Assembly (NCBI GenBank): GCA_003165415.1
Contig: PLUC01000058.1
Coordinates: 861-56,782, forward strand
DNA length: 55,922 bases
Origin: Holophagaceae bacterium
Lineage (GTDB): Bacteria; Acidobacteriota; Holophagae; Holophagales; Holophagaceae
Direction: 5' to 3'
This document shows, piece by piece, positions 6,835 through 55,045 of this stretch (positions within the stretch are counted from its first letter, which is position 1; each line of letters opens with the position of its first letter). The notes under the pieces are model-generated. The model searched no databases and was not told the origin of the DNA. It saw only the letters and a program-made list of their open reading frames with translations. A program made the translations under genes and the position numbers.

Positions 6835-6898
6835 CCGGCATAAGGTGTCGTAACAAAATTACCTGAAAAGCGCAGCTAATTTCGTGACGACACCTAAA
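6835..6898 (+). repeat. 64-bp palindromic repeat, copy 1
   Basis: A 51-base palindrome (6844-6894) with outer arms GGTGTCGT and ACGACACC is flanked by CCGGCATAA on the left and TAAA on the right. The same 64-base unit occurs in opposite orientation at 47815-47878 with 57 of 64 positions identical. The difference at unit position 14 (T to C) is matched by a change at its pairing partner, position 56 (A to G), so that base pair is kept. It lies in the divergent gap between 6766 and 6940, which also must hold two promoters. Confidence 0.8.
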
Positions 6899-13194: not shown

Positions 13195-13474
13195 GTTTTC
13201 TCCAAGTTGGTCCTAAATATTCATTTCAAATTGGGGTCCTGGATGCGGGTCGGCCCGAAGCTGAGCCCCTTCGTCTCATGTTTGGACCGCAACTTGTTGT
13301 TGACTTCAAGTCCAAATTTACATGATTCTTGAATGGTAACTTGCAACCTTCAATTTATGTATTTTTTTGGGTGTCCAGTAATCGGCCCCAACCATAGAAG
13401 GGCAAGCTGCTCCGGAATCCCACCCTGGCCGTGTCTTTTTTCTCCGTATGCACGGTGATTCCAACGAGGTTCTT
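13195..13474. promoter_or_regulatory. AT-rich divergent intergenic region
   Basis: This 280-bp gap separates the divergent OmpA-family and giant-protein genes and is much richer in A and T than its surroundings, as expected for two promoters. A TTGACT at about 13300 is followed by AT-rich bases that could form a weak plus-strand promoter. I see no convincing riboswitch, terminator or strong inverted repeat. Confidence 0.35.
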
Positions 13475-27217
<13,743 letters not shown>

Positions 27218-40265: not shown

Positions 40266-40267
40266 CC

Positions 40268-41323
40268 ATGCGGAAGATCCTGGCCCTGAACCCCGGAGCG
40301 ACCTCCACCAAGATCGCCGTCTTCGACGGTGCGGACGTGGTCCTGAAGACCACGGTGGAGCACCAGGGCGCCTCCCTGGACGGCTTCCAGCGCGTCATCG
40401 ACCAGTTCCAGTACCGCCTGGACCTGATCCTGGAGGCCCTGGCCGCGGCGAAGCTGGACCTGGGCAGCCTGTCCGCCGTGGTCGCCCGGGGCGGGCTGCT
40501 CAAGCCCATGGAGGGCGGCACCTACGCGGTCAACGCGCCCATGCTCGCCGACCTGGAGCACGCCCGGGAGCATGCCTCCAACCTCGGCGCCATCCTGGCG
40601 GACCGGCTGGCCGGAAGCCTGGGGATCCCCGCCTTCATCGTCGACCCGGTCTCCGTGGACGAGATGGAGCCGGAGGCGCGCATTTCGGGGCTGCCGGAAC
40701 TGCCCCGGCTGAGCTTCTCCCACGCCCTCAACAGCAAAGCGGTGGCGCGCCGGGTGGCCGCCCAGCTGGGCCGCAGCTACTTCGATTGCAACTTCGTGGT
40801 GGCCCACCTGGGCACGGGGATCTCCGTCACCGCCCACCGCAAGGGGCGGATGGTGGACGTCAACGGCGCCGAGGAGGAGGGCCCGTTCTCCCCAGCCCGC
40901 TCCGCCGGCCTGCCTTCCCTGTCGCTGGTGAAGCTGGTGTACTCCGGGCGCTACACGGAGAAGGAGATGCTGGGCCGGATGGTGGGCAACGGCGGGCTCT
41001 ACGCCCACCTGGGCACCCGGGACGTGCGCGAGGCCGAGCGCCGGGCCGCCGCGGGCGACGCCCAGGCCGCCCTGGTGCTCAAGGCCATGGCCTACAAGGT
41101 CGCCAAGGAGATCGGCGCCATGGCGGCGGTGCTGGCCGGCCAGGTGGACCGCGTCATCATCACCGGCGGCATCGCCTACTCGGAAAAGCTGGTGGCGGAG
41201 GTGTCGTCCCGCGTTGGCTTCATCGCCCCGATCCTGGTGCTGCCCGGGGAGGAGGAGCTGGAGGCCCTGGCGGAGGGCGCGCTCCGGGTGCTGGACGGCG
41301 AAGAGCCCGCCAAGATCTACTAA
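40268..41323 (+). CDS. buk: butyrate kinase
   Basis: The 351-residue protein is an acetate/butyrate kinase of the ASKHA fold. The N-terminal phosphate loop is LALNPGATSTKIAVF, and VAHLGTGISVTAH and VIITGGIAYSE form the nucleotide site; length and motifs match Buk rather than the longer AckA. It makes ATP from an acyl-phosphate. It begins two bases after the IOR gene and is followed by phosphate butyryltransferase, so the likely substrate is the acyl-CoA made by IOR, whether aryl-acetyl, branched or butyryl. Confidence 0.93.
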   Translation: MRKILALNPGATSTKIAVFDGADVVLKTTVEHQGASLDGFQRVIDQFQYRLDLILEALAAAKLDLGSLSAVVARGGLLKPMEGGTYAVNAPMLADLEHAREHASNLGAILADRLAGSLGIPAFIVDPVSVDEMEPEARISGLPELPRLSFSHALNSKAVARRVAAQLGRSYFDCNFVVAHLGTGISVTAHRKGRMVDVNGAEEEGPFSPARSAGLPSLSLVKLVYSGRYTEKEMLGRMVGNGGLYAHLGTRDVREAERRAAAGDAQAALVLKAMAYKVAKEIGAMAAVLAGQVDRVIITGGIAYSEKLVAEVSSRVGFIAPILVLPGEEELEALAEGALRVLDGEEPAKIY

Positions 41324-41340
41324 TGAACGCAGGAGCGACC

Positions 41341-42237
41341 ATGTTCAGGAATTACCAGGAACTGCGGACGGCGGCCAAGGGCCGCGGGCCCGTGCGGGTG
41401 GCGGTGGCCGCGGCCCAGGACCGGGAGGTCATGGAGGCGGTCCAGGCCGGCATCCGCACCGGGCTGATCGAGGCCACCCTGGTGGGGGACCAGTCCATCA
41501 TCGGTCCCTGGGCCGAGGAACTGGAGATCGCGGGCCAGGTGCGCATCGTCCATGAAACCGACCTGGCCCGGGCATCCCTGCTGGCCGTAGGGATGGTGCA
41601 CGATGGCGAGGCCCAGGTGCTCATGAAGGGTCTGGTCAACAGCGCCGTGTTCCTCAAGGCGGCCCTGGACCCCGAGCGCGGCCTGCGCGCCGGGCGGCTC
41701 CTGTGCCACCTGGCGGCCCTGGAGACCCCGGGGCGGAGGAAGCTGGAGTTCCTCACCGACGGCGGCATGAACATCGCGCCGGGCCTCGCGGAGAAGCGCC
41801 AGATCCTGGCCAGCGCCGTGGAGGCCCTGGCGCGCATGGGCATCGCCACGCCCAAGGTGGCGGTGCTGTGCGCCAACGAGCAGGTCAGCCCCAAGATGCC
41901 GGCGACGGTGGACGCCCAGGGCCTGGTGCAGCTCTGGCGGTCGGGGGCCTTCCCGGACTGCGTGGTGGAGGGCCCCATCGCCCTGGACGTGGCGGTGAGC
42001 CCGGAAGCGGCGCGGCACAAGGGCATCACCAGCCAGGTGTCCGGGGACGTGGACCTCTTCCTGGTGCCGAACATCGAAGCCGGCAACATGATGGCCAAGG
42101 CCATGGTCCACTACGCCGGCACCAAGTTCGCCGGCGTGGTCCTGGGCGCCAGCCATCCCGTGGTCATGGTCTCCCGCTCGGACCCGGCCGAAGCCAAGCT
42201 CAACGCCCTGGCCATGGCGGCCCTGCTGGCACGGTGA
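41341..42237 (+). CDS. ptb: phosphate butyryltransferase
   Basis: The 298-residue protein matches phosphate acetyl/butyryltransferases, with the LTDGGMNIAPGL and LVPNIEAGNMMAK blocks of the Ptb branch. It exchanges CoA for phosphate on acyl-CoA, the step before butyrate kinase. Buk and Ptb lie in reverse of the common ptb-buk order but are 17 bases apart. The ATG at 41341 with AGGAG five bases upstream is preferred; an ATG at 41323 overlapping the buk stop (TAATG) would add six residues. Confidence 0.93.
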   Translation: MFRNYQELRTAAKGRGPVRVAVAAAQDREVMEAVQAGIRTGLIEATLVGDQSIIGPWAEELEIAGQVRIVHETDLARASLLAVGMVHDGEAQVLMKGLVNSAVFLKAALDPERGLRAGRLLCHLAALETPGRRKLEFLTDGGMNIAPGLAEKRQILASAVEALARMGIATPKVAVLCANEQVSPKMPATVDAQGLVQLWRSGAFPDCVVEGPIALDVAVSPEAARHKGITSQVSGDVDLFLVPNIEAGNMMAKAMVHYAGTKFAGVVLGASHPVVMVSRSDPAEAKLNALAMAALLAR

Positions 42238-42262: not shown

Positions 42263-43240
42263 GTGACGAACCTCGAACCTTTCTCCATCGGCCCCATCGC
42301 CATCCAGCCCCCGCTGGTCATGGCGCCCCTGCACGAGATCACCGACCAGCCCTTCCGCCGGATGATCCGGCAGGTGGGCGGGGTGGGGCTCACGGTGTCC
42401 GAGATGATCTCCAGCGAGGCCCTGATCCGGCACGCGCGCAAGGCCCAGGCGATGATGGCCGGGGAAGGGGAGCGCCCCTTCTCCATGCAGCTCTCCGGCT
42501 CCATCCCCGAGCACCTGGCCGAGGCCGCGCGCATGGTCGAGGCGGCCGGGGCCGACCTGGTGGACCTGAACATGGGCTGCCCCGCCAGCAACGTCACCAG
42601 CGGCGGCGCCGGCTCGGCCCTGCTCAAGGACATCCGGCTGGCGGAGACCTGCGTCAAGGCCATGGTCCGGGCCGTGGGCGTCCCGGTGACGGTGAAGATG
42701 CGCGCTGGCTGGGACAACAGCCAGAAGGAACGGGCCGACTACCTGGACTTCCTGCGCATGTTCGAGGCGGCGGGGATCCAGGCCCTGGCCATCCACCCGC
42801 GCACCCGGGCCCAGCAGTACACCGGCAGCGCCGACTGGGCGCTCATCGCCCGGGCCGTGGACGCCGGGGTGGCCTTCCCCATCATCGGCAACGGCGACGT
42901 CAACACCCCCGACGACGCCCGGCGCATGTTCCGGGAGACCGGCTGCGCCGGGGTGATGATCGGCCGGGCGGCGCTGACCAACCCGTGGATCTTCCGGCAG
43001 ATCCTGGATCCGGGGTTGGAGGTCACCGAGCGGCAGCGGATCGAGCTGTGCATGAGTTTCTTCCGCATGCTGCAGGAGCTGCTGGAGCCCAGGGAGGCGC
43101 TGCACAAGATGAAGAAGATCGGCGCGTGGTTCACCAAGGGCATCCCGAACGGATCGGGGTTCCGCCAGAACTTGCACGCCTGCGAAGATCCGGAGCTGCT
43201 CTTCGCGATGCTGGAGCGGCTGAAGGAACCCGGGGTCTAG
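42263..43240 (+). CDS. dusB: tRNA-dihydrouridine synthase
   Basis: The 325-residue FMN enzyme reduces uridines in the D-loop of tRNA. Motifs are APLHEITDQPFRRM, the catalytic cysteine in LNMGCPASNV, KMRAGWD, IHPRTRAQQYTG and IIGNGDV. It fits the bacterial DusB-like group, though the A/B/C class is not certain. The GTG start lies 25 bases after ptb, so it is probably the last gene of the IOR operon. Other than position, nothing ties it to fermentation. Confidence 0.93.
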   Translation: MTNLEPFSIGPIAIQPPLVMAPLHEITDQPFRRMIRQVGGVGLTVSEMISSEALIRHARKAQAMMAGEGERPFSMQLSGSIPEHLAEAARMVEAAGADLVDLNMGCPASNVTSGGAGSALLKDIRLAETCVKAMVRAVGVPVTVKMRAGWDNSQKERADYLDFLRMFEAAGIQALAIHPRTRAQQYTGSADWALIARAVDAGVAFPIIGNGDVNTPDDARRMFRETGCAGVMIGRAALTNPWIFRQILDPGLEVTERQRIELCMSFFRMLQELLEPREALHKMKKIGAWFTKGIPNGSGFRQNLHACEDPELLFAMLERLKEPGV

Positions 43241-43246
43241 TGCGAT

Positions 43247-43298
43247 GATTTTGAGATTCAGATAAAATAACCCATTTCAGAAAAACAGATCTCAAATC
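43247..43298. terminator. AT-rich inverted repeat after dusB
   Basis: GATTTTGAGAT at 43247-43257 pairs with ATCTCAAATC at 43289-43298 (one bulged T), enclosing about 31 AT-rich bases. It starts a few bases after the dusB stop and sits before the rex promoter. It could end the IOR transcript, though the stem is not GC-rich and no long T-run follows. Confidence 0.3.
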
Positions 43299-43333
43299 GA
43301 AAATACCCTTTTGTAAATTAAGTTTTTGCATTT

Positions 43334-43351
43334 TCGTGATTTAAATCACGA
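43334..43351. promoter_or_regulatory. perfect 18-bp palindrome, Rex- or Crp-like
   Basis: TCGTGATTT is followed directly by its reverse complement AAATCACGA. The core GTGA-N6-TCAC is shared with the Rex box downstream; the two centres are 85 bases apart, close to eight helical turns. It could be a second Rex site or a Crp/Fnr-family site controlling the hydrogenase operon. Confidence 0.55.
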
Positions 43352-43418
43352 GAAATGTGGGCCACGGCTGTCCCTTTCAGTTACACTTTTTTCATGGCAT
43401 TCGTGACAAACCATAACA

Positions 43419-43436
43419 TTGTGAAATATTTCACGG
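43419..43436. promoter_or_regulatory. Rex operator
   Basis: TTGTGAAATATTTCACGG matches the known Rex consensus TTGTGAAATATTTCACAA at 16 of 18 positions and contains a perfect 14-bp palindrome (43421-43434). It lies ten bases before the rex start codon. Rex bound here at low NADH/NAD ratio would block its own gene and the hydrogenase genes behind it. Confidence 0.82.
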
Positions 43437-43446
43437 TCAAAACAAC

Positions 43447-44103
43447 ATGCAGACCATCTCGGAAAAAGTCGTAGGACGGCTCTCCCGCTATCGCACCCTG
43501 CTCACCGAGCAGAAGGACGGGGAGCGCACCCACCTCTTTTCCCACGAAATAGCAGCGGCCATGCGGCTTTCGGACTCCCAGGTGCGCCGGGACCTCATGA
43601 CCATCGGCACCCGCGGGCTGCCCAGCCGGGGCTACGAAATCCAGGGACTGCTGCTGGACCTGGACCAGGCCCTGAACCAGACCCGGGTCCACGGAGTGGC
43701 CGTGGTGGGGGCGGGCAACATGGGCCGGGCGCTCATCGCCAACCTGGAATCCACCCGCACCAACCTGCGCATCAAGTGCGCCTTCGACGCCGACAAGAGC
43801 AAATGCAACCGGGTCTACTCCGGCGTCAAGTGCCATCCCATGGATGCCCTGGAAACGGTGGTGGCCCAGGAGGGCATCACCCTGGCCATCCTCTGCGTGC
43901 CCGCCGCCTCGGCCCAGGCCCTGGCGGAACGCCTGGTCCACGCCGGGGTCAAGGGCGTGCTCAATTTCTCCTCCCAAGCTCTGCGGCTGCCCAGGACCAT
44001 CGCCCTGGAAGAAATAGATATCGGCAATTATCTGGCGAAGCTCGCCTACTTCACCATTCATCCCTCAAAGGAGCGTCGGAATGGCCGTCATGAAGACCGT
44101 TGA
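43447..44103 (+). CDS. rex: redox-sensing transcriptional repressor Rex
   Basis: The 218-residue protein has an N-terminal winged helix (HEIAAAMRLSDSQVRRDLM) and a C-terminal Rossmann domain with VAVVGAGNMGRAL that reads NADH versus NAD+. Rex proteins repress fermentation and hydrogenase genes until NADH accumulates. The gene is first in the hydrogenase operon, with a Rex box directly in front, so it very likely controls itself and the hyd genes. It overlaps hydC by 23 bases. No strong ribosome site is visible before the ATG, which might keep its level low. Confidence 0.95.
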   Translation: MQTISEKVVGRLSRYRTLLTEQKDGERTHLFSHEIAAAMRLSDSQVRRDLMTIGTRGLPSRGYEIQGLLLDLDQALNQTRVHGVAVVGAGNMGRALIANLESTRTNLRIKCAFDADKSKCNRVYSGVKCHPMDALETVVAQEGITLAILCVPAASAQALAERLVHAGVKGVLNFSSQALRLPRTIALEEIDIGNYLAKLAYFTIHPSKERRNGRHEDR

Positions 44104-44590
44104 AACCATCCTATTGGGTCACCCCGATGCCGGGCGCGACCACCTCATCCCGATCCTGCAGGAAGTGCAGGCGGTGGAGGGCTATCTGTCCAAGGAATCC
44201 ATCACCCAGGTCGGCCTGCAGCTCCACCTGCCCGCCAGCAAGATCTTCGGGGTGGCCACCTTCTACAACATGTTCAGGTTCCAGCCCAAGGGCAAGTACC
44301 ACGTGATGGTCTGCCGGGGCACGGCCTGCCACGTCAAGGGCAGCAAGCGGGTCCTGGACATGGTCACCAAGACCCTGAAGCTGCAGCCCGGCGAAACCAG
44401 CCGGGACGGCCTGTTCAGCCTGGAAGTGGTGGCCTGCATGGGCGCCTGCGGCCTGGCTCCGGTGGTGAACATCAACGGCCAGTTCCACGCCAAGGTCACC
44501 CCCATGAAACTGCAAAGGATCCTCGACGAATGCCGCGACGAATGCCGTGTTGCGTGCCGCAACCAGGAGCTCACCCATGTCGAGCAATAA
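44081..44590 (+). CDS. hydC: hydrogenase subunit HydC (NuoE-like, [2Fe-2S])
   Basis: The 169-residue protein is NuoE/HndA-like. The four cluster cysteines are in VCRGTACHVKG and VVACMGACG, and the helical start with YLSKESITQVGLQL and KIFGVATFYNMF is typical. In trimeric bifurcating hydrogenases this thioredoxin-fold subunit passes electrons next to the FMN subunit. AGGAG stands before the ATG, inside the 3' end of rex, and its own end overlaps hydB by 14 bases, so translation is tightly linked. Confidence 0.95.
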   Translation: MAVMKTVETILLGHPDAGRDHLIPILQEVQAVEGYLSKESITQVGLQLHLPASKIFGVATFYNMFRFQPKGKYHVMVCRGTACHVKGSKRVLDMVTKTLKLQPGETSRDGLFSLEVVACMGACGLAPVVNINGQFHAKVTPMKLQRILDECRDECRVACRNQELTHVEQ

Positions 44591-47500
44591 TCCCCTCTCC
44601 AACTCCTGCTGGGAAGTGCCCGGCAAGCCGAGCCCCGAACTGCTGGCCGCGCTCAAGACCGGCCCCTTCGCCGGCAAGTCCGGCGCTGAGCTGGACGCGC
44701 TCCTGGCCGGCCTGCGCCGGGACCAGGTGTCCCGCCCGGTGATCTTCGTGGGCGCCGGCACCTGCGGCCTGGGCGCCGGGGCCGCCAAGACCCTGGCCAA
44801 GGTCAAGGCCATCTGCGAAGCCAAGAAGCTGGACGCGGACATCCGCGAAGTGGGCTGCATCGGCCTGTGCTCCGAAGAGCCCATCATGGACGTGCAGCTG
44901 CCCGGCCGCACCCGGGTGTCCTTCGGCAACGTCACCGAGGACAAGGTGGAAGCCCTGCTGGACACCATCTTCCAGGGCGGCCTGGTGAAGGAGCAGGTCC
45001 TGGGCCAGTTCTTCGCCGAAGGCCAGGAACCCTGGCAGGGCGTCAAGGACCTGGCCGCGCATCCGTTCCTGGCCATCCAGAAGCGCTGGGTGCTGGCCAA
45101 CTCCGGCCTGATCGACTTCACCTCCATCGACGAGTACATCGCCCGGGGCGGCTACTCCGCCGTGCAGCGGGCCATCACCACCATGACCCGCCAGGAAGTG
45201 GTGGACGAGATCCTCAAGAGCGGGCTGCGGGGCAGGGGCGGCGGCGGCTTCCCCACCGGCAAGAAGTGGCAGATGGCGCTCTCCGCCGCCGGCGCGCAGA
45301 AGTACATGGTCTGCAACGCCGACGAAGGCGATCCGGGCGCGTTCATGGACCGCGCCGTGTGCGAGAGCGACCCGCACCGGATGCTGGAAGGCATGATCAC
45401 CGGCTGCTATGCCATCGGCGCCACCAAGGCCTACATCTACATCCGCGCCGAGTACCCCCTGGCCATCCAGAACCTGAAGATCGCCATGAAACAGGCCAAG
45501 GAATACGGCCTGCTGGGCGAGAACATCCTGGGCAGCGGCTTCAACCTCGACATCGTCATCAAGATGGGCGCCGGAGCCTTTGTCTGCGGCGAAGAGACCG
45601 CCCTCATGCAGTCCATCGAAGGCAAGCGCGGCATGCCCAGGCCGAGGCCGCCCTATCCCATCCAGTCCGGCCTGTTCGGCATGCCCACGGTCATCAACAA
45701 CGTGGAGACCTTCGCCAACATCGCCGCCATCATGCAGATGGGTTCGGCCAAGTTCGCGGCGGTCGGCACCCCGGGCAGCAAGGGCACCAAGGTGTTCGCG
45801 TTGTCGGGCATGGTGCGCCGCACCGGTCTGGTGGAAGTGCCCATGGGCACCCCCATCCGCGACGTGGTGTTCGCCGTGGGCGGCGGCATCCCCAACGGCA
45901 AGAAGTGCAAGGCGGTGCAGATCGGCGGGCCTTCCGGCGGCTGCATCCCCGAGCCGGCCATGGACCTGGTGTGCGACTACGAGGCCCTGAAGTCCTTCGG
46001 CGCCATCATGGGTTCCGGCGGTCTGGTGGTCCTGGACGAGAACACCTGCATGGTGGACCTGGCCAAGTTCTTCATGGAGTTCATCCAGTCCGAGAGCTGC
46101 GGCAAGTGCATCCCCTGCCGGGAAGGCACGCGGCAGATGCTGCAGATCCTCCAGTCCATCACCCACAACCGCCGCGGCGAGGAGGGCATGGATGCCCTGC
46201 TGCGGGTGCGCGGGGTCATGGTGCTCAAGGAACTGGGCGAGGCCATCAAGAACAGCAGCCTGTGCGGCCTGGGCCAGACCGCGCCGAACCCGGTGCTGTC
46301 CACCCTCAAGTGGTTCCGGGACGAGTACGAAGCCCACATCTACGAACGCCGCTGCCCGGCCGGAACCTGCCGGGAGCTGGTGGGCGCGCCCTGCCAATCC
46401 GGCTGCCCGGTGGGCACTGAGGTCTGGAAGTACGTGGCCCACATTTCCCTGGGCGAATACGACGAGGCCTACCAGGCCATCCGCGGGGCCAACCCGTTCC
46501 CGTCCGTGTGCGCCCGGGTCTGCAACCATCCCTGTGAAGCCTCGTGCCGCTGCGGCACCACCGGCGGTGATCCCATCGCCATCCGCAACCTCAAGCGGTT
46601 CGTGGTGGACCGGGTGGATCCGTCCACCTTCAAGCCCACGGTGCGGCCGGCCAAGTCCGACGCGCCGAGGGTGGCGGTCATCGGCGGCGGTCCCGCCGGC
46701 CTGTGCGCCGCCAACGCCCTCAGCCTGAAGGGCTACCGGGTCACCCTGCTGGAGCGCGAGCAGAAGCTGGGCGGCATGCTGGTGGCGGGCATCCCCGCCT
46801 ACCGCCTGCCGCGCAAGGTGCTCGACCAGGAGATCCAGAACCTGCTCAACCCGAACATCACGGTCGAGTACGGCAAGGCCCTGGGCAAGGACTTCACCCT
46901 GGGCGACCTGAAGGGCTACCAGGCGGTGTATGTGGCCACCGGCGCCCACCACAGCAAGCGGCTGGGCCTGCCCGGCGACGACGTGAAGGGCGTGCTCCCG
47001 GGCATCGAGTTCCTGAAGGGCTTCAACCTGCACCACAAGGAACTGGCCCAGGGCCGGGTCGGCATCGTCGGCGGCGGCAACAGCGCCCTGGACGCGGCCC
47101 GGGTGGCCGTGCGCCAGGAGGGGGTCACCGACGTGACCATCTTCTACCGCCGCACCCGCGGCGAGATGCCCGCCTACGCCGAAGAGATCGATGCCGCCCT
47201 CGAGGAAGGCATCCATCTGGAGGCCCTGGTGGCGCCGCTGGCGGTCAAGTCGGAGAACGGCAAGCTCACCGGCGTCCAGTTCCAGCGCAACGAGCTGGGC
47301 GACAAGGACGAAAGCGGCCGCGCGCGGCCGGTGCCGATCCCCGGCAGCGAGTTCGTGGCGGAACTGGACACCTTGATCGTGGCCATCTCCGAGGAGCCCG
47401 AAGGCGACCTGCTCAACGGCCTCAAGCGCAAGAGCTGGGGCGGGCTGGTGATCAACCCCGAGTCCTACCTGGCAAGCGAACCGGGCGTGTTCGGCGGCGG

Positions 47501-47819
47501 CGACGTGGTCTCCGGTCCCAGCACGGTGATCGAGGCGGTGGCGGCCGGCAAGAACGCCGCGGTCATGATCGACCGCTTCATCCAGGGCAAGCAGCTCAAG
47601 CAGCTGCCCAGGGTGGCGCTGCCGACGGAGTACATCCAGCCGTTCAGCACCGAGGAGGAGGAAGGCGAAGCGCCGGGACGGACCCATCCGCCCCACCTGC
47701 CGGTGGAGGCCCGGATCAAGAACTTCAGGGAGGTGGACCTCTGCTTCTCCGAGGATCACGCCCAGTGCGAAGCCCGTCGCTGCCTGCGCTGCGACATCGA
47801 ATTCACCCAACCTGTTTAG
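44577..47819 (+). CDS. hydB: HydB (NuoF-like) fused to a GltD/NfnB-like flavoprotein
   Basis: The 1,080-residue protein is far longer than usual HydB/HndC proteins. Residues 1-130 form a thioredoxin-like [2Fe-2S] part (GTCGLG, VGCIGLC). The NuoF core follows, with FMN/NADH loop LRGRGGGGFPTGKKW and the [4Fe-4S] motif ESCGKCIPCREGT (C508, C511, C514). From about 590 a GltD-type unit starts: iron-sulfur domain with CPAGTC, CQSGCP and CARVCNHPCEASC, FAD site VAVIGGGPAGLCAAN near 700, and NAD(P) site VGIVGGGNSALDAA near 828. GltD/NfnB domains commonly use NADPH, so the subunit may join NAD(H), NADP(H), ferredoxin and H2. Its stop codon lies inside a palindromic repeat. Confidence 0.93.
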   Translation: MSSNNPLSNSCWEVPGKPSPELLAALKTGPFAGKSGAELDALLAGLRRDQVSRPVIFVGAGTCGLGAGAAKTLAKVKAICEAKKLDADIREVGCIGLCSEEPIMDVQLPGRTRVSFGNVTEDKVEALLDTIFQGGLVKEQVLGQFFAEGQEPWQGVKDLAAHPFLAIQKRWVLANSGLIDFTSIDEYIARGGYSAVQRAITTMTRQEVVDEILKSGLRGRGGGGFPTGKKWQMALSAAGAQKYMVCNADEGDPGAFMDRAVCESDPHRMLEGMITGCYAIGATKAYIYIRAEYPLAIQNLKIAMKQAKEYGLLGENILGSGFNLDIVIKMGAGAFVCGEETALMQSIEGKRGMPRPRPPYPIQSGLFGMPTVINNVETFANIAAIMQMGSAKFAAVGTPGSKGTKVFALSGMVRRTGLVEVPMGTPIRDVVFAVGGGIPNGKKCKAVQIGGPSGGCIPEPAMDLVCDYEALKSFGAIMGSGGLVVLDENTCMVDLAKFFMEFIQSESCGKCIPCREGTRQMLQILQSITHNRRGEEGMDALLRVRGVMVLKELGEAIKNSSLCGLGQTAPNPVLSTLKWFRDEYEAHIYERRCPAGTCRELVGAPCQSGCPVGTEVWKYVAHISLGEYDEAYQAIRGANPFPSVCARVCNHPCEASCRCGTTGGDPIAIRNLKRFVVDRVDPSTFKPTVRPAKSDAPRVAVIGGGPAGLCAANALSLKGYRVTLLEREQKLGGMLVAGIPAYRLPRKVLDQEIQNLLNPNITVEYGKALGKDFTLGDLKGYQAVYVATGAHHSKRLGLPGDDVKGVLPGIEFLKGFNLHHKELAQGRVGIVGGGNSALDAARVAVRQEGVTDVTIFYRRTRGEMPAYAEEIDAALEEGIHLEALVAPLAVKSENGKLTGVQFQRNELGDKDESGRARPVPIPGSEFVAELDTLIVAISEEPEGDLLNGLKRKSWGGLVINPESYLASEPGVFGGGDVVSGPSTVIEAVAAGKNAAVMIDRFIQGKQLKQLPRVALPTEYIQPFSTEEEEGEAPGRTHPPHLPVEARIKNFREVDLCFSEDHAQCEARRCLRCDIEFTQPV

Positions 47820-47878
47820 GTGCCGTTATGAAATTACCTGCTCTTTTCAGGTCATTTTGTTACGGCACCTTATGCCGG
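47815..47878 (-). repeat. 64-bp palindromic repeat, copy 2
   Basis: This is the inverted copy of the unit at 6835-6898. The first bases, TTTAGG, include the TAG stop of hydB (47817-47819), and the 51-base palindrome fills 47819-47869. It stands alone in the 114-bp gap between hydB and hydA, the widest gap in an otherwise tightly packed operon. Its strong RNA hairpin could affect mRNA decay or the ratio of HydB to HydA. No T-run follows, so full termination is unlikely. Confidence 0.8.
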
Positions 47879-47933
47879 GACATGGACCAATGGACCCGAT
47901 TTTTCCCTCACACAGGCTTAGACGAGGCCAACG

Positions 47934-49655
47934 ATGTCAACCCTTGAAGCGAATGGTAAGCAACTCGAAGTAAGGAAGGGGGATACCATCCTCCAGGCGC
48001 TCCGGCGCGGCGGCATCCACGTGCCGACGATCTGCCACATGGAGGGCCTGCTGCCGTCGGGAACCTGCCGGATGTGCGTGGTGGAAGTGGAAGGCATGGG
48101 CGGGCTCATCCCGTCCTGCTCCTTCCCCGCCGCCGAAGGCATGAAGGTCCACACCAGCACCCCGACCGTGCTCAAGACCCGCAAGGCGATCGTGGAGCTG
48201 CTCCTGAGCAACCACCCCGACGATTGCCTCTACTGCGCCCGCAACGGCAACTGTGACCTGGCCAACCTGGCCAAGGAGCACGGCGTGCGCCAGCGGGTGT
48301 TCCGGGGCGCGCGCAAGCGCATGGACAAGGACAGCTCCAGCCCCGCGATCGTGCGCGATCCGGAGAAGTGCATCCTGTGCGGCAAGTGCGTGCGGGTGTG
48401 CGAAGAGGTCCAGGGCGTGTCCGCCATCGATTTCATCAACCGCGGCTCCAGGGCCTTCGTGGGCACCGCCTTCAACGACGGCATGAACGTCTCCAGCTGC
48501 ATCAACTGCGGCCAGTGCATCCTGGTCTGCCCCACCGCCGCCCTGAGCGAAAAGAACTACGTGGCCGAGGTGCTGCGGGTGCTGGCCGATCCGGGCAAGA
48601 CCGTGGTGGTCCAGCACGCGCCGGCGGTGTCGGTGTCCATCGCCGAAGAGTTCGGCGCCAAGCCGGGCACCGACTTCGACGGCCAGATGGTGGCCGCCAT
48701 GCGCCGGGCCGGGTTCGACAAGGTGTTCGACACGTCGTTCACCGCCGACCTCACGATCATGGAAGAGGGCTCGGAACTGCTCAAGCGGGTCACCGAAGGC
48801 GGCGCGCTGCCCATGTTCACCAGCTGCTCCCCGGGCTGGATCAAGTTCGTGGAGGAGTTCTACCCCGAGTTCATCCCCAACCTGTCCACCTGCAAGAGCC
48901 CCCAGCAGATGATGGGCGCCATCATCAAGAGCTTCTGGGCCAAGCGCGAGGGCATCGAGCCCCGGGACATCGTCAGCGTCTCGATCATGCCCTGCACCGC
49001 CAAGAAGTTCGAGTGCAACCGCCCCGAAATGGGCAAAGATTATGTGCCGGACGTGGACTACGTGCTCACCACCCGGGAGCTGGCGGAACTGTTCAAGGTG
49101 GTCGGGATCAACCCGGCGACCCTGGAGCCCGAGGGGGCCGATTCCCCCTTCGGCGAGCGTTCTTCCGCCGGCAAGCTGTTCGGGGCCTCGGGCGGGGTGA
49201 TGGAGGCGGCCATCCGCAGCGCCTACTTCCTCCTCACCGGCGACGAGATGAAGGACTACAAGATCCAGGACCTGCGCGGCATGAAGGGCTGCAAGGAGCT
49301 GCGGGTCCAGGCCGGGCCGGTGGAAGTGGCGGCCGCGGTGGTCTCCAGCCTCGGCCAGGCGCGCAAGCTCATGGAGGAGATCAAGGCCGGACGCAACGAC
49401 CTGCACTTCATCGAGGTCATGACCTGCCCCGGCGGCTGCATCAACGGCGGCGGCCAGCCTCTGGGCGCCAACATGGAGTCGGTCAAGGCGCGCATGGCGG
49501 CCCTCTACAACATCGACCGGGAGGATCACCTGCGGGTCAGCCACAAGAACACGGAGGTCGCGAGGCTCTACAAAGAATTCCTGGGCGCGCCCCTGGGCCA
49601 CCTCAGTCACGAGCTGCTCCACACCCACTACCACAAACGCGAAGTGATGCTTTAG
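47934..49655 (+). CDS. hydA: [FeFe]-hydrogenase catalytic subunit HydA
   Basis: The 573-residue protein has the long modular form: N-terminal [2Fe-2S] domain (C34, C45, C48, C62), His-Cys3 cluster (HPDDCLYCARNGNC), two [4Fe-4S] motifs (CILCGKCVRVC and CINCGQCILVC) and the H-cluster domain with L1 TSCSPGW (C298), L2 MPCTAKKFE (C354) and L3 TCPGGCINGGGQP (C498, C502). L1 has Ser where many enzymes have a second Cys, a form I believe is common in multimeric enzymes. With HydB and HydC it should form the cytoplasmic electron-bifurcating complex. Maturases HydE, HydF and HydG are not in this window. Confidence 0.96.
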   Translation: MSTLEANGKQLEVRKGDTILQALRRGGIHVPTICHMEGLLPSGTCRMCVVEVEGMGGLIPSCSFPAAEGMKVHTSTPTVLKTRKAIVELLLSNHPDDCLYCARNGNCDLANLAKEHGVRQRVFRGARKRMDKDSSSPAIVRDPEKCILCGKCVRVCEEVQGVSAIDFINRGSRAFVGTAFNDGMNVSSCINCGQCILVCPTAALSEKNYVAEVLRVLADPGKTVVVQHAPAVSVSIAEEFGAKPGTDFDGQMVAAMRRAGFDKVFDTSFTADLTIMEEGSELLKRVTEGGALPMFTSCSPGWIKFVEEFYPEFIPNLSTCKSPQQMMGAIIKSFWAKREGIEPRDIVSVSIMPCTAKKFECNRPEMGKDYVPDVDYVLTTRELAELFKVVGINPATLEPEGADSPFGERSSAGKLFGASGGVMEAAIRSAYFLLTGDEMKDYKIQDLRGMKGCKELRVQAGPVEVAAAVVSSLGQARKLMEEIKAGRNDLHFIEVMTCPGGCINGGGQPLGANMESVKARMAALYNIDREDHLRVSHKNTEVARLYKEFLGAPLGHLSHELLHTHYHKREVML

Positions 49656-49672
49656 GCCGAAGGAGTAACCCC

Positions 49673-50065
49673 ATGGAAACCCAAAAGAAGATTCTGGTCG
49701 TCGACGACGACATCGACATGCTGGAGCAGGTGGCCCTCATCCTCAAGGCCGAGGGCTACCAGGTGATCAAGGCCCAGGGCCAGAAGGAGGGCGAGGAGGC
49801 CCTCCTCACCACCATTCCGGACCTGGCGGTGCTGGACCTGATGATGGAGAACATGGATTCCGGCTTCGTGCTCTGCCACCACGTCAAGCGGCTGTTCCCG
49901 GAGACCCCGGTGATCCTGCTCACGGCGGTCAAGGCCGCCACCGGGCTGGATTTCCAGCCCCAGTCCAGCGAGGCCGCCTCCTGGGTCAAGGCCGACGTCC
50001 TCATGGACAAGCCGGTCCGGCCCGAGCAGCTCAAGCAGGAAGTGAGACGCCTGCTCAAGGTATGA
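49673..50065 (+). CDS. single-domain response regulator of the hydrogenase operon
   Basis: The 130-residue protein is a receiver domain only: D11-D13, phospho-acceptor D55 in VLDLMMENMD, Thr in VILLTAV and Lys in LMDKPVRP. The stretch between the Thr and the Lys is longer than usual (AATGLDFQPQSSEAASWVK). It starts 17 bases after hydA with AGGAG upstream and precedes the H-cluster kinase, so that kinase is the likely phosphodonor. With no output domain it must act through a partner. Confidence 0.93.
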   Translation: METQKKILVVDDDIDMLEQVALILKAEGYQVIKAQGQKEGEEALLTTIPDLAVLDLMMENMDSGFVLCHHVKRLFPETPVILLTAVKAATGLDFQPQSSEAASWVKADVLMDKPVRPEQLKQEVRRLLKV

Positions 50066-50117
50066 GGATGCGTGCGATAATGGCCGGATCCCTGGAATTT
50101 GAAGGAGGTTGAAGGCC

Positions 50118-52157
50118 ATGGCTGAACCCGAGGTCGATCCCGCCCCAGAGGGGCAGCCGGCCTTGGGTTTTGTCAAGACAGTGCCGAACCGGTGCCGGAT
50201 CTGCTACACCTGCGTGCGCACCTGCCCGGCCAAGGCCATCCGCATCTCCAAGAGCCAGGCGGAGGTGGTGCCGTCCCGCTGCATCGGTTGCGGGCACTGC
50301 ATCCAGGTGTGCAGCCAGAAGGCGAAGCGTATTGTTTCAACTCTTTACGATGTGGAAGCGCAGCTCAAGTCGGGCGCCCGGGTGGCGGTGTGCCTGGCCC
50401 CCAGCTTCCCGGTGGAGTTCCAGGAGGAGATGGACTTCCGGGTGCTGGTGGGGATGCTGCGCAAGATGGGCTTCGCCAAGGTGGTGGAGGTGGCCTTCGG
50501 CGCGGACCTGGTGGCCGAGCGCTACCGCCAGCTGCTCTGCGAGCAGCCGTACAACCAGTTCATTGCCACCACTTGTCCGGCCATCGTCACCTTCGTGGAG
50601 CGCTACCAGCCGGAGCTGGTGCCCTTCCTGGCGCCCATCGTCAGCCCCATGGTGGCCATCGCCCGGGCCCTGCGCATGGACGACCCGGACCTCAAGGTGG
50701 TGTTCGTGGGGCCCTGCGTGGCCAAGAAGGCCGAGGCCTGCAACGCCGACATCGACGGCGGGCCGGACGTGGCCATCACCTTCCGGGAGCTGCGCTACCT
50801 GTTCCTGCGCTGGTCCATCAAGGCGGAGCGGGTGGAGCCTTCGGACTTCGACCCGCCCCATCCTTCCCTGGGCGCGCTGTTCCCCATGACCCGCGGGTTC
50901 CTGCAGGCGGCCTCCATCAAGGAGGACCTGCTGGCCAACGAGGTGGTGGCCATCGACGGCATCAAGGGCTTCACCTCGGTGCTGGAGGAGTTCGCCAACG
51001 GCACCATGGAGGCCAGGCTGCTGGAACTGCTGTGCTGCGAGGGCTGCATCGCGGGTCCAGGCCTGTCCAGCGAGGAGACCCTGTTCAAGCGCCGGGAGCG
51101 GGTCAGCCACTACACCCGCTACCGCCAGTCCCAGTTGGACCATGAGGAGTGGCAGCGTCATGTGGACCGCTACGTGGGGCTGGACCTGAACCGCCGGTTC
51201 ACCCCGGACGACCAGCGCCTGCAGCCGCTGGAACCCGCCGCCCTCAACGAGATCATGAAGAAGATGGGCAAGTACTCCGAGGCCCATGAGCTGAACTGCG
51301 GCGCCTGCGGCTACCACACCTGCCGGGAGCACGCCCTGGCCATCGCCAAGGGCTTCGCCGAAAGCGAGATGTGCCTGCCCTTCGTCATCGACACCAACCT
51401 GAGCACCATCCGCAAGCTCACCCACGCCAACCAGAAGCTGGCCAGCACCCAGGAGACCCTGATGCACTCCGAGCGGCTGGCGAGCATGGGCCAGCTGGCG
51501 GCCGGGGTCGCCCACGAGATCAACAACCCGCTGGGGGTGGTGCTGATGTACACCCACCTGCTGCTGGAGGAGTGCCAGAAGGAATCGCCCCTGCGCCCGG
51601 ACCTGGAGATGATCGTGGAGCAGGCCAACCGGTGCAAGCGCATCGTCGCCGGCCTGCTGGACTTCGCCCGGCAGAACAAGGTGGCGTTCCAGCCCGCGGA
51701 CATCCGCGAGGTGATCCGCACCTCCCTGGCCAACCTGGCCACCCCGCCGGGGGTCACGGTGGAGGTGGAGCACCTGGACGGCAGTCCCAGGATCGAGCTG
51801 GACCGGGACCAGATCATCCAGGTGTTCGTGAACCTGGTGGGCAACGCCTTCGACGCCATGCCCAAGGGCGGCACCCTGCGGATCCAGTCCCGGGCCGACC
51901 AGGCCACCCTCACGGTGGAGGTGAAGGACACCGGCACCGGCATCCCCAAGGAGAACCTGAACAAGCTGTTCGAGCCTTTCTTCACCACCAAGCTCATGGG
52001 CAAGGGCACCGGGCTGGGGCTGCCGGTGGTGTACGGGATCGTGAAGCTGCACCGGGGCGAGATCAGCGTGGAGTCCAACCCGGACCCCTCGGCCGGGCCC
52101 ACCGGCACCACGTTCCGGGTGAAGCTGCCGCGCGAGGCCAAGCGCCAGGGAGAATAG
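50118..52157 (+). CDS. hydrogenase-like H-cluster sensor histidine kinase
   Basis: The 679-residue protein joins a hydrogenase-like sensor to a kinase. Two [4Fe-4S] motifs open it (C26, C29, C32, C36; C55, C58, C61, C65). An H-cluster-type domain follows, with TTCPAIV (C153), GPCVAKKAE (C200) and CCEGCIAG (C306, C310), matching the L1, L2 and L3 cysteines but diverged around them. Next is an FeS domain (NCGACGYHTCREHA), then a DHp domain with H466 (GVAHEINNPLG) and a HATPase (NAFDAM, DTGTGIP, GKGTGLGL). There is no membrane segment, so sensing is cytoplasmic. H2 or redox sensing is inferred from the sensory [FeFe] group. GGAGG lies nine bases before the ATG. Confidence 0.9.
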   Translation: MAEPEVDPAPEGQPALGFVKTVPNRCRICYTCVRTCPAKAIRISKSQAEVVPSRCIGCGHCIQVCSQKAKRIVSTLYDVEAQLKSGARVAVCLAPSFPVEFQEEMDFRVLVGMLRKMGFAKVVEVAFGADLVAERYRQLLCEQPYNQFIATTCPAIVTFVERYQPELVPFLAPIVSPMVAIARALRMDDPDLKVVFVGPCVAKKAEACNADIDGGPDVAITFRELRYLFLRWSIKAERVEPSDFDPPHPSLGALFPMTRGFLQAASIKEDLLANEVVAIDGIKGFTSVLEEFANGTMEARLLELLCCEGCIAGPGLSSEETLFKRRERVSHYTRYRQSQLDHEEWQRHVDRYVGLDLNRRFTPDDQRLQPLEPAALNEIMKKMGKYSEAHELNCGACGYHTCREHALAIAKGFAESEMCLPFVIDTNLSTIRKLTHANQKLASTQETLMHSERLASMGQLAAGVAHEINNPLGVVLMYTHLLLEECQKESPLRPDLEMIVEQANRCKRIVAGLLDFARQNKVAFQPADIREVIRTSLANLATPPGVTVEVEHLDGSPRIELDRDQIIQVFVNLVGNAFDAMPKGGTLRIQSRADQATLTVEVKDTGTGIPKENLNKLFEPFFTTKLMGKGTGLGLPVVYGIVKLHRGEISVESNPDPSAGPTGTTFRVKLPREAKRQGE

Positions 52158-52163
52158 GGAAAC

Positions 52164-53285
52164 ATGAAAGAGACCCTGCATCTGATGGTGGTGGACGACG
52201 AACAGGGGATGCGCCTGTCGGTGGAGCGCGCCCTGCGCCACTACACCACCTGGTTCGACGACATCGAGGCGGAGGTGTCGTTCCGCATCTCCCTGGCGGA
52301 AACCGGCGAGGAGGCCCTGGACCTGCTGGCCACGGACCCGGCCGACATCCTGCTGCTGGACTACAAGCTGCCGGGCATGTCCGGCATGGACGTGCTGCAG
52401 GTGCTGGGGGAGCGCAAGTCGGAAACCCTGGTGGTGATGATCACCGCCTACGCCACCCTGGCCACGGCGGTGCAGGCCACCAAGGTGGGGGCGTTCGACT
52501 TCCTGGCCAAGCCCTTCAATCCCGACGAGCTGAAGGCGGCGGTGCACCGCACCAGCAAGCACGCCATGGTCCAGCGCGCGGCCCGCAAGCTGGCCGGGGA
52601 GCGCCGGCAGATCCGCTTCGAGTTCCTGTCGGTGCTGGCCCACGAGCTCAAGTCGCCCCTGGCGGCGGTGGAGGGCAACCTGCGGATCCTGCGGGACCGC
52701 TCCCTGGGCGAGAAGATGGAGGAGTACGACACCCTGGTGGGCCGGTCCATGCTCCGCCTGGACGGCATGCGCAAGCTGATCATGGACCTGCTGGACCTGA
52801 CCCAGATCGAGTCCGGCCAGAAGAAGCGGGTGCTGACGCCCGTGGACGTGTGCGCGGTGGCGGCCCAGGTGCTGGAGACCCAACAGGTGCTGGCGGCGGA
52901 GAAGTGGGTGACGCTGGGCTTCCACCCCAAGGGGCCGGTGATCATCGACGCCGACGCCGGCGAACTGGAGATCATGTTCAACAACCTGGTGTCCAACGCC
53001 ATCAAATACAACCTTGACAACGGTTCGGTGACGGTCACCGTGGAGCAGGACGCGGAGTCGGTGACCATCGCCGTGCGCGACACCGGCATCGGCATGAGCG
53101 CCGAGGAGATGGGCAAGCTGTTCGGCGAGTTCAGCCGGATCAAGAACGAAAAGACCCGCAACATCCTGGGCTCCGGCCTGGGGCTGTCCATCCTGCGCCG
53201 GCTGGCCGGGCTGTACGGGGGCTCGGTGAAGGTGCAGAGCTCGCCGGGGGAGGGGACCACGTTCACGGTGGTGCTCAAGAAGTAG
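52164..53285 (+). CDS. receiver-histidine kinase hybrid
   Basis: The 373-residue protein has a receiver domain first (D11, D12, phospho-acceptor D66 in LLLDYKLPG, Lys in FLAKPF), then a dimerisation domain with H160 in VLAHELKSPL and a HATPase with NLVSNAIKYN, DTGIGM and GSGLGLSI. A receiver ahead of the kinase suggests that the upstream H-cluster kinase phosphorylates it and changes its activity. It follows by six bases. No DNA-binding or enzymatic output domain is present, so the end of this relay lies elsewhere. Confidence 0.93.
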   Translation: MKETLHLMVVDDEQGMRLSVERALRHYTTWFDDIEAEVSFRISLAETGEEALDLLATDPADILLLDYKLPGMSGMDVLQVLGERKSETLVVMITAYATLATAVQATKVGAFDFLAKPFNPDELKAAVHRTSKHAMVQRAARKLAGERRQIRFEFLSVLAHELKSPLAAVEGNLRILRDRSLGEKMEEYDTLVGRSMLRLDGMRKLIMDLLDLTQIESGQKKRVLTPVDVCAVAAQVLETQQVLAAEKWVTLGFHPKGPVIIDADAGELEIMFNNLVSNAIKYNLDNGSVTVTVEQDAESVTIAVRDTGIGMSAEEMGKLFGEFSRIKNEKTRNILGSGLGLSILRRLAGLYGGSVKVQSSPGEGTTFTVVLKK

Positions 53286-53310
53286 CGGATACCATGGTTA
53301 TGAGGATTCC

Positions 53311-54546
53311 ATGGAACTTCCGGTCGAAATCACGGTCCCGCTCACCAGCTCCATCCCCGAAGTGGCCTTCGTGCTGGAGCTGGGCTACAGCATGCAGGCG
53401 TTCGGGGCCAGCGCCACCACCCTGGAGAAGGCCCTGGGCCGGGTGGCCCAGCACCTGGAACTGGAGGGGGCGGTGTTCGCCACCCCCACCGGCTTTCTCG
53501 CCTCGCTGCGCAAGGAGGGGCTGCACAGCAAGACCTACCTGATGCGGCTGAACACCGGCTGGTCCAGCCTGGAGAAGCTGGCCGACGTGGAAGCGCTGGT
53601 GGACCTGGTGCTGTCCGGGCAGCTGGACGCGGCGGCGGCCCGGCAGCATCTGGCCGCCCTTTCCGCCCGGCCGCCCCGGTTCGGCTTCTGGCTCAAGGTG
53701 GGCGCCCACGGGCTGGCGGCCATGGGCATGGCCTGCATCTTCGGCGGCGGCTGGCGCGAGGTGCTGCTGGGAGCGGGGGTGGGCCTGCTGGTGGGGTTTG
53801 CCGTGCTGCTGGCCCAGAAGCGCCATAACCTGGCCCGCCTGACCCCGCTGCTGGGCGGGCTGCTGAGCGCCTTGGCGGGCGGCCTCATCGGCCGGTGGCT
53901 GCCCTCGGTCTCCTACACCATCCTGGTGGTCAGCGGCATCATCGGCCTGCTGCCCGGACTGGGGCTGCTGGTGTCCATGCAGGAGCTGGGCACCGGCAAC
54001 CTGGTCTCGGGCACCGCGCGCATGGCCGGCACCGGGCTGGTGTTCATCCTGCTGGCCTTCGGGGTGGGCCTGGGCCAGCAGCTGGGCGCGTCCTGGCTGC
54101 CCGTGGTCCCGACGCTGCCCCTGGCCCTGCCGCTGTGGACCGTGGCCCCGGCCATCGCCATGGTGGCCCTGGGCTTCCTGGTGATCTTCCAGGGGCGCCC
54201 GGCCGACTACGGCTGGACCCTGGTCGCCAGCGCCCTGGCCTGGGCCACCGCCCACCTGGCGGCCCAGGCCCTGGGGCCGGTGGCCGGGGCCGGGATCGCC
54301 GCGCTGGTGCTGGGCGCCGCCTGCAACACCTACGCCCGGCGCACCCGGCGGCCCGGGGCGGTGCTGCAGCTGCCTTCACTGATGCTGATCCTGCCGGGGA
54401 GCCTGGGGGTGCACAGCCTCACCCTGATGATGCAGAAGCAGACCCTGGACGGGCTCCAGGCCGGCTTCCAGTCCGTGGCGGTGACGGTGGCGCTGATGGT
54501 GGGCCTGCTCCTGGCCAACGCCATGGTGCCGCGCAGGACGTTTTGA
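53311..54546 (+). CDS. threonine/serine exporter, ThrE family
   Basis: The 411-residue protein has the ThrE layout: an N-terminal soluble part of about 120 residues (LELGYSMQAFGASATTLEKAL, with GLHSKTYLMRLN), then about ten membrane segments, including the repeated pore halves of DUF1212 and DUF3815 fused in one chain. It exports threonine or serine in the proton gradient in known members. GAGG lies five bases before the ATG, 25 bases after the hybrid kinase, so it could be read from the hydrogenase operon. Confidence 0.9.
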   Translation: MELPVEITVPLTSSIPEVAFVLELGYSMQAFGASATTLEKALGRVAQHLELEGAVFATPTGFLASLRKEGLHSKTYLMRLNTGWSSLEKLADVEALVDLVLSGQLDAAAARQHLAALSARPPRFGFWLKVGAHGLAAMGMACIFGGGWREVLLGAGVGLLVGFAVLLAQKRHNLARLTPLLGGLLSALAGGLIGRWLPSVSYTILVVSGIIGLLPGLGLLVSMQELGTGNLVSGTARMAGTGLVFILLAFGVGLGQQLGASWLPVVPTLPLALPLWTVAPAIAMVALGFLVIFQGRPADYGWTLVASALAWATAHLAAQALGPVAGAGIAALVLGAACNTYARRTRRPGAVLQLPSLMLILPGSLGVHSLTLMMQKQTLDGLQAGFQSVAVTVALMVGLLLANAMVPRRTF

Positions 54547-54547
54547 G

Positions 54548-55045
54548 TCAGGCCTTGGCCATCCGCTTAGCCATCCTGGAATCCAGATACCAGATGCCGC
54601 CGCCCTGGTCGCCCACCGCGTGCAGGTGGTCCACCACCTGGCCGACGTTGGATTCCTCCTCCACCTGCTCGGACACGTACCACTGCAGGGTGATCTCGCT
54701 GGCGTAGTCCTTCTCCGTCCGGGACAGGTCGAACAGGGCGTTGATCTTCTGGGTGATGCCCATCTCGTGGGCCAGGGTCTGCTCGAACACCTGGATGACC
54801 CCGCCGAATTCCTGGGGAGGCGCGGCGATGGGCTTCAGCTCCAGCTTGCCCTTGCGGTCCAGGAGGAAATCGATGAGCTTCACCGCGTGGGCGGTCTCCT
54901 CCCCGGCCTGGACCCGCAGCCAGTGGGCGAACCCCTTGAAGCTGAGGGTCTCGCAGTGGGCTCCCATGGCCAGGTAGAGCTGGGCGGAGTACTGTTCCAG
55001 GTTGATCTGGGTGTTGAGGGCGTTCTGCATGGTTGGGCTGATCAT
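54548..55045 (-). CDS. ftnA: ferritin
   Basis: The 165-residue protein is a haem-free bacterial ferritin. Ferroxidase ligands are visible: E17 (NLEQYSAQ), E50 and H53 (GEETAH), a Glu in FEQTLAHE and the late SEQVEEE block. It stores iron as a 24-mer shell in the cytoplasm. The ATG at 55045 with GGAGG four bases upstream is preferred; a Met at residue 6 is the alternative. It lies downstream of feoB on the same strand, which makes iron uptake followed by storage a sensible unit, although a 102-bp AT-rich gap allows its own promoter. Confidence 0.94.
   Translation of the reverse strand: MISPTMQNALNTQINLEQYSAQLYLAMGAHCETLSFKGFAHWLRVQAGEETAHAVKLIDFLLDRKGKLELKPIAAPPQEFGGVIQVFEQTLAHEMGITQKINALFDLSRTEKDYASEITLQWYVSEQVEEESNVGQVVDHLHAVGDQGGGIWYLDSRMAKRMAKA

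Follow-up and report, generated by a model that had tools for sequence, protein, structure and literature searches.

In a 55,922-nucleotide stretch of DNA from a Holophagaceae bacterium (the window; bases 861-56782 of contig C147, PLUC01000058.1, i.e. almost the entire contig), seven genes lie on the + strand in the order rex, hydC, hydB, hydA, a lone receiver, a histidine kinase with an [FeFe]-hydrogenase domain (H-domain), here termed HydS-HK, and a receiver-histidine kinase hybrid (REC-HK). Judging from their sequences, they probably constitute an operon, repressed by Rex, for an NAD(P)H-linked [FeFe]-hydrogenase and an H2/redox two-component relay of its own, the last step of which is not encoded in the operon. 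The source genome is a 4.84 Mb draft in 273 contigs, with a completeness of 94.19% and a contamination of 7.38%. The names of all seven genes agree with their Pfam and NCBIfam matches (Table 1) and the intergenic distances along the row are -23, -14, +114, +17, +52 and +6 bp, in keeping with a preliminary description of this DNA that had reported seven same-strand genes separated by small gaps.

Table 1. Features of the putative operon in the window, with the matches or motifs that identify them
Feature	Position	Strand	Evidence
Rex operator-like palindrome TTGTGAAATATTTCACGG; a promoter-like -10 overlaps it	43419..43436	+	2 mismatches to Rex consensus TTGTGAAnnnnTTCACAA
rex, NADH/NAD+-sensing repressor	43447..44103	+	NCBIfam NF003995, 176.8 bits (cut-off 126)
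hydC, thioredoxin-like [2Fe-2S] subunit; start 44081 or 44090	44081..44590	+	PF01257, 167.7 bits
hydB, NuoF-like FMN/NAD(H) subunit; C-terminal DPD_II two-[4Fe-4S] and GltD-like FAD/NAD(P) module	44577..47819	+	PF01512, PF10589, PF14691, PF07992
hydB-hydA gap with a single copy of a dispersed palindromic repeat; may serve in processing or attenuation	47820..47933	+	Repeat matches and hairpin
hydA, catalytic [FeFe]-hydrogenase subunit	47934..49655	+	NCBIfam NF040763; motifs TSCSPGW, MPCTAKK, CPGGC
Lone receiver domain protein, D55	49673..50065	+	PF00072, 58.7 bits
Sensor kinase HydS-HK	50118..52157	+	PF02906 (151 bits), PF04060, PF00512, PF02518
REC-HK, D66 and H160, without output domain	52164..53285	+	PF00072, PF00512, PF02518

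The window Rex protein exceeds three NCBIfam cut-offs, among them that of NF003995, and it is the sole DNA-binding protein of the operon; its designation as a Rex repressor is based on this family score together with the presence of an operator-like site at its own operon. That site is the only match to the Rex consensus in the window at up to three mismatches. Because at least one chance match at three mismatches appeared in 27 of 100 shuffles of the whole window, a single site says little by its mere presence, and it is the position of the site that is telling. The sole sigma-70-like site in 42900-54800 (43403-43430; the shuffle mean is 1.0 such sites) overlaps it, and among the loci of the wide survey described below a Rex-like site with up to three mismatches was found within 200 bp upstream of rex in 31/45 cases, compared with 2.0% of windows drawn at random from these loci (the count was 35/48 before duplicates and one mis-sized upstream region were dropped). 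The preliminary description had proposed Rex control and had begun the unit at 43419, which proved to be the first base of the palindrome. A rex gene heading hydABC behind a Rex site has already been published for Caldithrix abyssi (Cabys_3675-3679; PMC5317091), an operon for which, unlike that of the window, the part of the article drawn on here names no sensor kinase.

From its N to its C terminus, HydS-HK comprises two [4Fe-4S] motifs, the H-domain, a Cx2Cx4Cx16C site, a HisKA domain with H466 and a HATPase domain, and hence an [FeFe]-hydrogenase domain and an entire histidine kinase are indeed fused in one protein, as had been stated. In an alignment of sensors, the rows of which include four duplicate contigs and four sensors without a kinase, the eight cysteines of the N-terminal motifs are present in 93/93 rows, the H-cluster cysteine positions C153, C200, C307 and C310 are kept in 92/92 covering rows, and so are C394, C397, C402 and C419 of the C-terminal site (PF04060). 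H466 is kept in 90 of the 92 rows that cover it, some of which are without a kinase. Two further positions are replaced, namely T152 (T, S or A in 83/92 rows) and G198 (G in 92/92 rows, like HydS of Thermotoga maritima), which we take, from the alignment and from CpI numbering, to be those of C299 and of the L2 methionine M353 of CpI. The N-terminal motifs, the H-domain cysteines, the two replacements and the Cx2Cx4Cx16C site led us to designate the protein a putative sensory [FeFe]-hydrogenase (groups C/D, M2f/M2e). Consistent with this designation, the same features are shared by two HydS proteins, that of T. maritima in group C (M2f) and that of Thermoanaerobacter mathranii in group D (M2e) (PMC10055695, PMC8163306, PMC13104023), the C-terminal motif having been described for both sensory groups (PMC8163306). 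In group C (M2f) a PAS domain follows the C-terminal cluster, whereas in the window sensor no PAS family was found at an E-value of 0.001 and it is HisKA and HATPase that follow that cluster; a PAS-type HydS was accordingly rejected. The fusion of both kinase domains fits group C1 of HydDB, an assignment made by architecture. Since Table 1 of the HydDB article already names C1 "Histidine kinase-linked (putative)" (PMC5037454), the novelty claimed for the fusion of an H-domain to a kinase does not hold. What C1 as described in that source shares with the window is the link between H-domain and histidine kinase, with a presumed role in sensing H2; distinctive of the window are that the kinase is fused and that REC-HK is a nearly constant partner. 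A second H-domain protein in the same genome (L005, 1270-3108 of contig C198) is joined to the signalling domain of a methyl-accepting chemotaxis protein (MCP) chemoreceptor, like the chemotactic group C2 of HydDB.

The comparison of gene order that the preliminary description had suggested was carried out in a set of 41 genomes (the source genome and 40 relatives), and the arrangement was found to be kept far beyond the genus. Nine of the 41, the source included, have a sensor ortholog over nearly the full length at 49% identity or more. Among the other eight, five have the identical seven-gene order (G001, G002, G004 and G005 of the same genus and G007 of another), and in two with broken contigs (G003 and G017, the hydA of the latter being interrupted by N runs) the order agrees as far as the sequence reaches. 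The eighth, G032, belongs to another family. Its rex, sensor, hybrid and hydG genes are consecutive, hydE and hydF lie upstream in the opposite orientation, and hydABC is missing from the locus; it has one other PF02906 protein, on a separate contig. A chance cluster of open reading frames was rejected on the basis of this conserved order.

For a wider survey, contigs were scanned with residues 1-435 of the sensor, i.e. with the kinase part left out of the query, and the best 80 of at least 454 confirmed matches were taken, a choice that biases the survey towards sensors resembling that of the window. The record titles of these 80, as we read them, span at least 15 phylum-level groups, with Planctomycetota and Hydrogenedentota the most frequent. 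After dropping L042-L045 (same contigs as L011, L032, L034 and L035), 84 loci were counted. A kinase is fused to the sensor in 84/84 of them, and in 68 of the 73 with enough sequence the REC-HK gene lies no more than 3 kb downstream, the five without it being L053, L065, L077, L078 and L102. Upstream of the sensor were found hydA (52/68), rex (35/52) and rex with the full hydCBA set (31/52). These neighbours were counted by midpoints, with slightly laxer limits for REC-HK and with overlapping stop-to-stop frames allowed; a stricter count, with overlapping frames discarded and shorter distances, gave REC-HK in 53/73 and hydA in 43/68. The constant partner of the sensor is REC-HK and not the lone receiver. 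Sensor and REC-HK distances correlate with a Mantel r of 0.76 over 69 loci (0.14 or less in 300 shuffles; other pairs 0.40-0.76), a coefficient that may also reflect the species relatedness of the hosts.

Given Rex biology and the operator-like site, a rise in NADH would cause Rex to leave its operator and the operon to be expressed. By their domains, the HydABC subunits would then pass electrons between NADH, probably NADP(H) via the GltD-like tail, and H2. We propose that HydS-HK, once HydEFG have matured it, binds H2 or becomes reduced at a slow H-cluster, and that this change travels through the C-terminal [4Fe-4S] domain to the helix next to it, thereby altering autophosphorylation at H466. 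The phosphoryl group could pass to D66 of REC-HK, to D55 of the lone receiver or to both, and REC-HK could in turn use H160; the residues themselves are present. The final step is not encoded in the operon, and would fall to a partner protein bound by the lone receiver or to a response regulator elsewhere. An AlphaFold2 model of the sensor (77 sequences; mean predicted local distance difference test (pLDDT) 87.2, predicted template modelling score (pTM) 0.66) predicts a helix at 420-485 that leads out of the C-terminal cluster domain and continues into the helix of HisKA. When this model was compared with the PDB by Foldseek, [FeFe]-hydrogenases were the best matches (E-values of 2.6e-21 and weaker) and the ZraS kinase appeared from rank 12.

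The two further relay proteins of the preliminary description are real in that all phosphotransfer residues are present: D55 of the receiver is identical in 50/50 aligned sequences, D66 and H160 of REC-HK are each found in 70/70, and the His and Asp residues expected of a phosphorelay are intact across sensor, hybrid and receiver. Its "closed control loop" was not supported. Pfam identified no DNA-binding or other output domain in the three window relay proteins, and no transcription-factor family was recurrent among the clusters of unassigned neighbouring open reading frames at the 84 loci, the largest cluster of which (10 loci) is aspartate ammonia-lyase-like by reading of the sequence. The H2 branch is therefore without a visible output and the loop is open at one end. 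In view of this, it is quite conceivable, if somewhat doubtful, that the relay, although expressed together with the hydrogenase, serves to regulate other targets, such as other hydrogenases, fermentation genes or motility, with no loop on the operon. The absence of DNA-binding domains and of a recurrent regulator would suit such a role, as would two more hydABC-like loci in the same genome (on C178 and C271); conversely, the usual upstream neighbours of the sensor, hydA and rex, fit control of the hydrogenase itself. Of those two loci, L037 (C178) and L038 (C271), the latter is preceded by a kinase-like match and a receiver.

The L3 cysteine spacing is CxxC (CxGC) in 80 kinase-type sequences, CCxGC (ambiguous) in four and CxxxC in one (L110); five related kinase-less sensors that were caught by the L3 pattern have CxxxC spacing, and the kinase-less Bacteroidales sensors L101 and L121, which fall outside the catch of that pattern, have CEGC. 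In a profile alignment with HydA, C310 pairs with the last L3 cysteine of HydA and a one-residue gap falls inside L3. The sensor could be an iron-sulphur redox (or O2/NO) kinase, with cubanes only in its H-domain, no [2Fe] subcluster and a ligand other than H2. We regard this as unlikely. The unusual spacing speaks for it, as do the invariance of the other three [4Fe-4S] sites and a published doubt about hydrogen sensing by group C1, whose motifs could hardly be found (PMC11406978, seen in part); the short L3 spacing may be a reason for that difficulty. Against it stand the four H-cluster cysteine positions, which are invariant across distant loci, and the maturase genes that accompany the sensor. 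HydG scored above its cut-off in 9/9 genomes with a sensor ortholog and in 17/32 others (26/41 in total), and because of those others its presence says little alone. In G032 and at locus L046 of genome G041, sensor and hydG lie side by side with no hydABC adjoining. More informatively, the sensor is the sole PF02906 protein in two of 16 genomes examined, G041 and G046, both of which are drafts of unstated completeness. In G041, HydE and HydF are present, HydG adjoins the sensor, no other client of the maturases was found, and the 10 kb upstream of the sensor has rex and a receiver but not hydABC. In G046 a lost hydABC is likely, because the sensor lies close to a contig end.

Several observations weigh against the Rex-controlled hydrogenase operon with its own H2/redox relay that we favour. 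An L3 spacing of two residues instead of three leaves the loading of the H-cluster uncertain, and the doubt about C1 just cited applies here as well. The argument that the sensor is the only client in G041 is limited by the unstated completeness of that draft, hydEFG lie outside the cluster in the window, and hydE, hydF or hydG is downstream of the sensor in only 27/49 loci. The C-terminal cluster of a group D sensor was reported, in the part of PMC13104023 used here, not to be reduced by H2, for which reason a redox step at this cluster of the window sensor is not to be assumed, and the pLDDT of the predicted helix is just 50-61 over 441-470. Furthermore, the lone receiver is near the sensor in only 39/66 loci, a terminator-like hairpin was matched at 47836-47852 in the hydB-hydA gap, and host relatedness may contribute to the Mantel coefficients given above.

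The enzyme itself had been described as "bifurcating hydABC", and this designation had to be revised. HydA matches NCBIfam NF040763 (group A6) at 817.2 bits, over a cut-off of 765, and the presence of a HydA with H-cluster motifs and of HydC accords with the bifurcating type of group A3. Residues 55-603 of HydB match bifurcating HydB and NfnB chains in the PDB, and residues 604-1073 correspond to the GltD portion of Stn/NfnABC-type chains. The C-terminal two-[4Fe-4S] (B3/B4) domain, proposed for ferredoxin, is not in the window HydB, the DPD_II and GltD-like module standing in its place, and on account of this absent tail membership in bifurcating HydABC was rejected. An ordinary ferredoxin- and NAD-dependent bifurcating enzyme, to which the high score of HydA in an NADH-dependent group and the matches of HydB 55-603 would point, is distinctly improbable in view of the replaced ferredoxin-type domain and of an enzyme of S. 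wolfei in which clusters B3 and B4 are missing from HydB and for which no bifurcation was seen (as reported in PMC11406978). We infer that the window enzyme exchanges ferredoxin for NADP(H). The 54 HydBs examined at the surveyed loci divide into 39 with the two-[4Fe-4S] tail but no GltD and 15 with GltD but no such tail, none having both, which suggests that the two mutually exclusive tails represent ferredoxin-linked and NADP-linked forms of the enzyme. Replacement of the ferredoxin-type tail by DPD_II/FAD has been described for sub-type I BfuB (PMC11406978). The StnABC transhydrogenase likewise has a GltD-like FAD/NADPH module on a HydBC-type core; there, according to the portion of PMC10482914 used, NADPH electrons enter via the module, which is carried on a large StnC, and the StnB tail is the site of ferredoxin reduction, whereas in the window the module replaces that tail. 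Two gene orders were also noted without being counted: GltD-type HydB often occurs with hydA-receiver-sensor (e.g. L057, L079, L083, L116), and ferredoxin-tail HydB often with sensor-receiver-hybrid (e.g. L048, L050, L071).

The 114 bp hydB-hydA gap holds a hairpin (z-score -3.5; arms 47818-47840 and 47848-47870) within a repeat that has 20 further matches in the same genome, one of them in the window at 6835-6893 on the - strand. As a conserved feature of the operon the gap was rejected, the repeat being genome-specific and the gap only 12 bp in G004 (L030). That the seven genes merely happen to be adjacent, with no link in function, as might be argued from this hairpin and from knowledge of the genes by sequence alone, is hardly credible given an order kept in five related genomes and a core pair kept across many phyla.

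The sensor of the window is of a known kind; its variant features are the kinase after the cluster domain, the REC-HK partner, CxGC in L3 and a GltD-type HydB together with the sensor. Compared with HydS of T. maritima and T. mathranii, as far as the cited parts of those articles go, it has a kinase in place of the group C PAS domain, and nearly all its relatives have CxxC in L3. The neighbourhood is likewise not new, contrary to the preliminary description: for Hydrogenedentota, group C1/C3 genes adjacent to those of group A3 have been published, with kinase domains in some of them (PMC11406978), the HydS gene of T. mathranii lies upstream of hydABC (PMC8163306), and in Cloacimonadota of Ace Lake a C1 gene adjoins a gene for a kinase, in one instance together with bifurcating subunits, the kinase there being a neighbouring gene whereas in the window it is fused (PMC8542988). 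The BfuABC systems of Hydrogenedentota share with the window a sensor gene beside hydABC, kinase domains and the DPD_II and FAD tail of sub-type I; in the portion of PMC11406978 used, the sensor gene (T) belongs to sub-types IV and V and the tail to sub-type I, features which the window joins, and Rex, which the window has, is not mentioned in the main text. In the open-access literature searched, we found no description of rex, kinase-fused sensor and REC-HK as a unit, nor a test of such a sensor. Overall, the interpretation in the preliminary description stood with respect to the Rex operon, the fused sensor, the relay residues and the conservation of the arrangement, and was unsupported or overstated with respect to the novelty of the fusion, bifurcation and the closed loop.

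More tentatively, the surveyed loci may represent a widespread, sensor-first H2 module in which Rex, a kinase-wired H-domain and REC-HK form the core, HydEFG would be its own maturation set and hydABC would be common but dispensable; the CxxC form of L3 would then mark a distinct sensory type, and the hydrogenase of the window branch would have swapped ferredoxin for NADP(H). [FeFe]-hydrogenases of groups C and D continue to be described as putative sensors (PMC8924675), and as the studied members end in PAS or in no known output, H2 signalling by them is hard to assay. A soluble single chain with H-domain and kinase, together with a nearly constant partner, would make H2-dependent phosphorylation directly assayable. 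The conserved set moreover joins NADH sensing by Rex and putative H2/redox sensing at one operon in many anaerobes.

With regard to the surroundings of the operon, a ThrE-like gene begins 25 bp after the REC-HK gene and was kept out of the operon because thrE had no match in the retrieved sensor neighbourhoods of relatives. No Rfam family reached its gathering threshold across the window. Upstream, frames at 37788-42237 resemble, by eye only, an indolepyruvate-type oxidoreductase and butyrate kinase/phosphotransbutyrylase and, if so read, would fit a fermentative setting. Farther upstream, at 13448-27217, lies an open frame of 4589 residues with putative Ig (He_PIG) and Kelch repeats.

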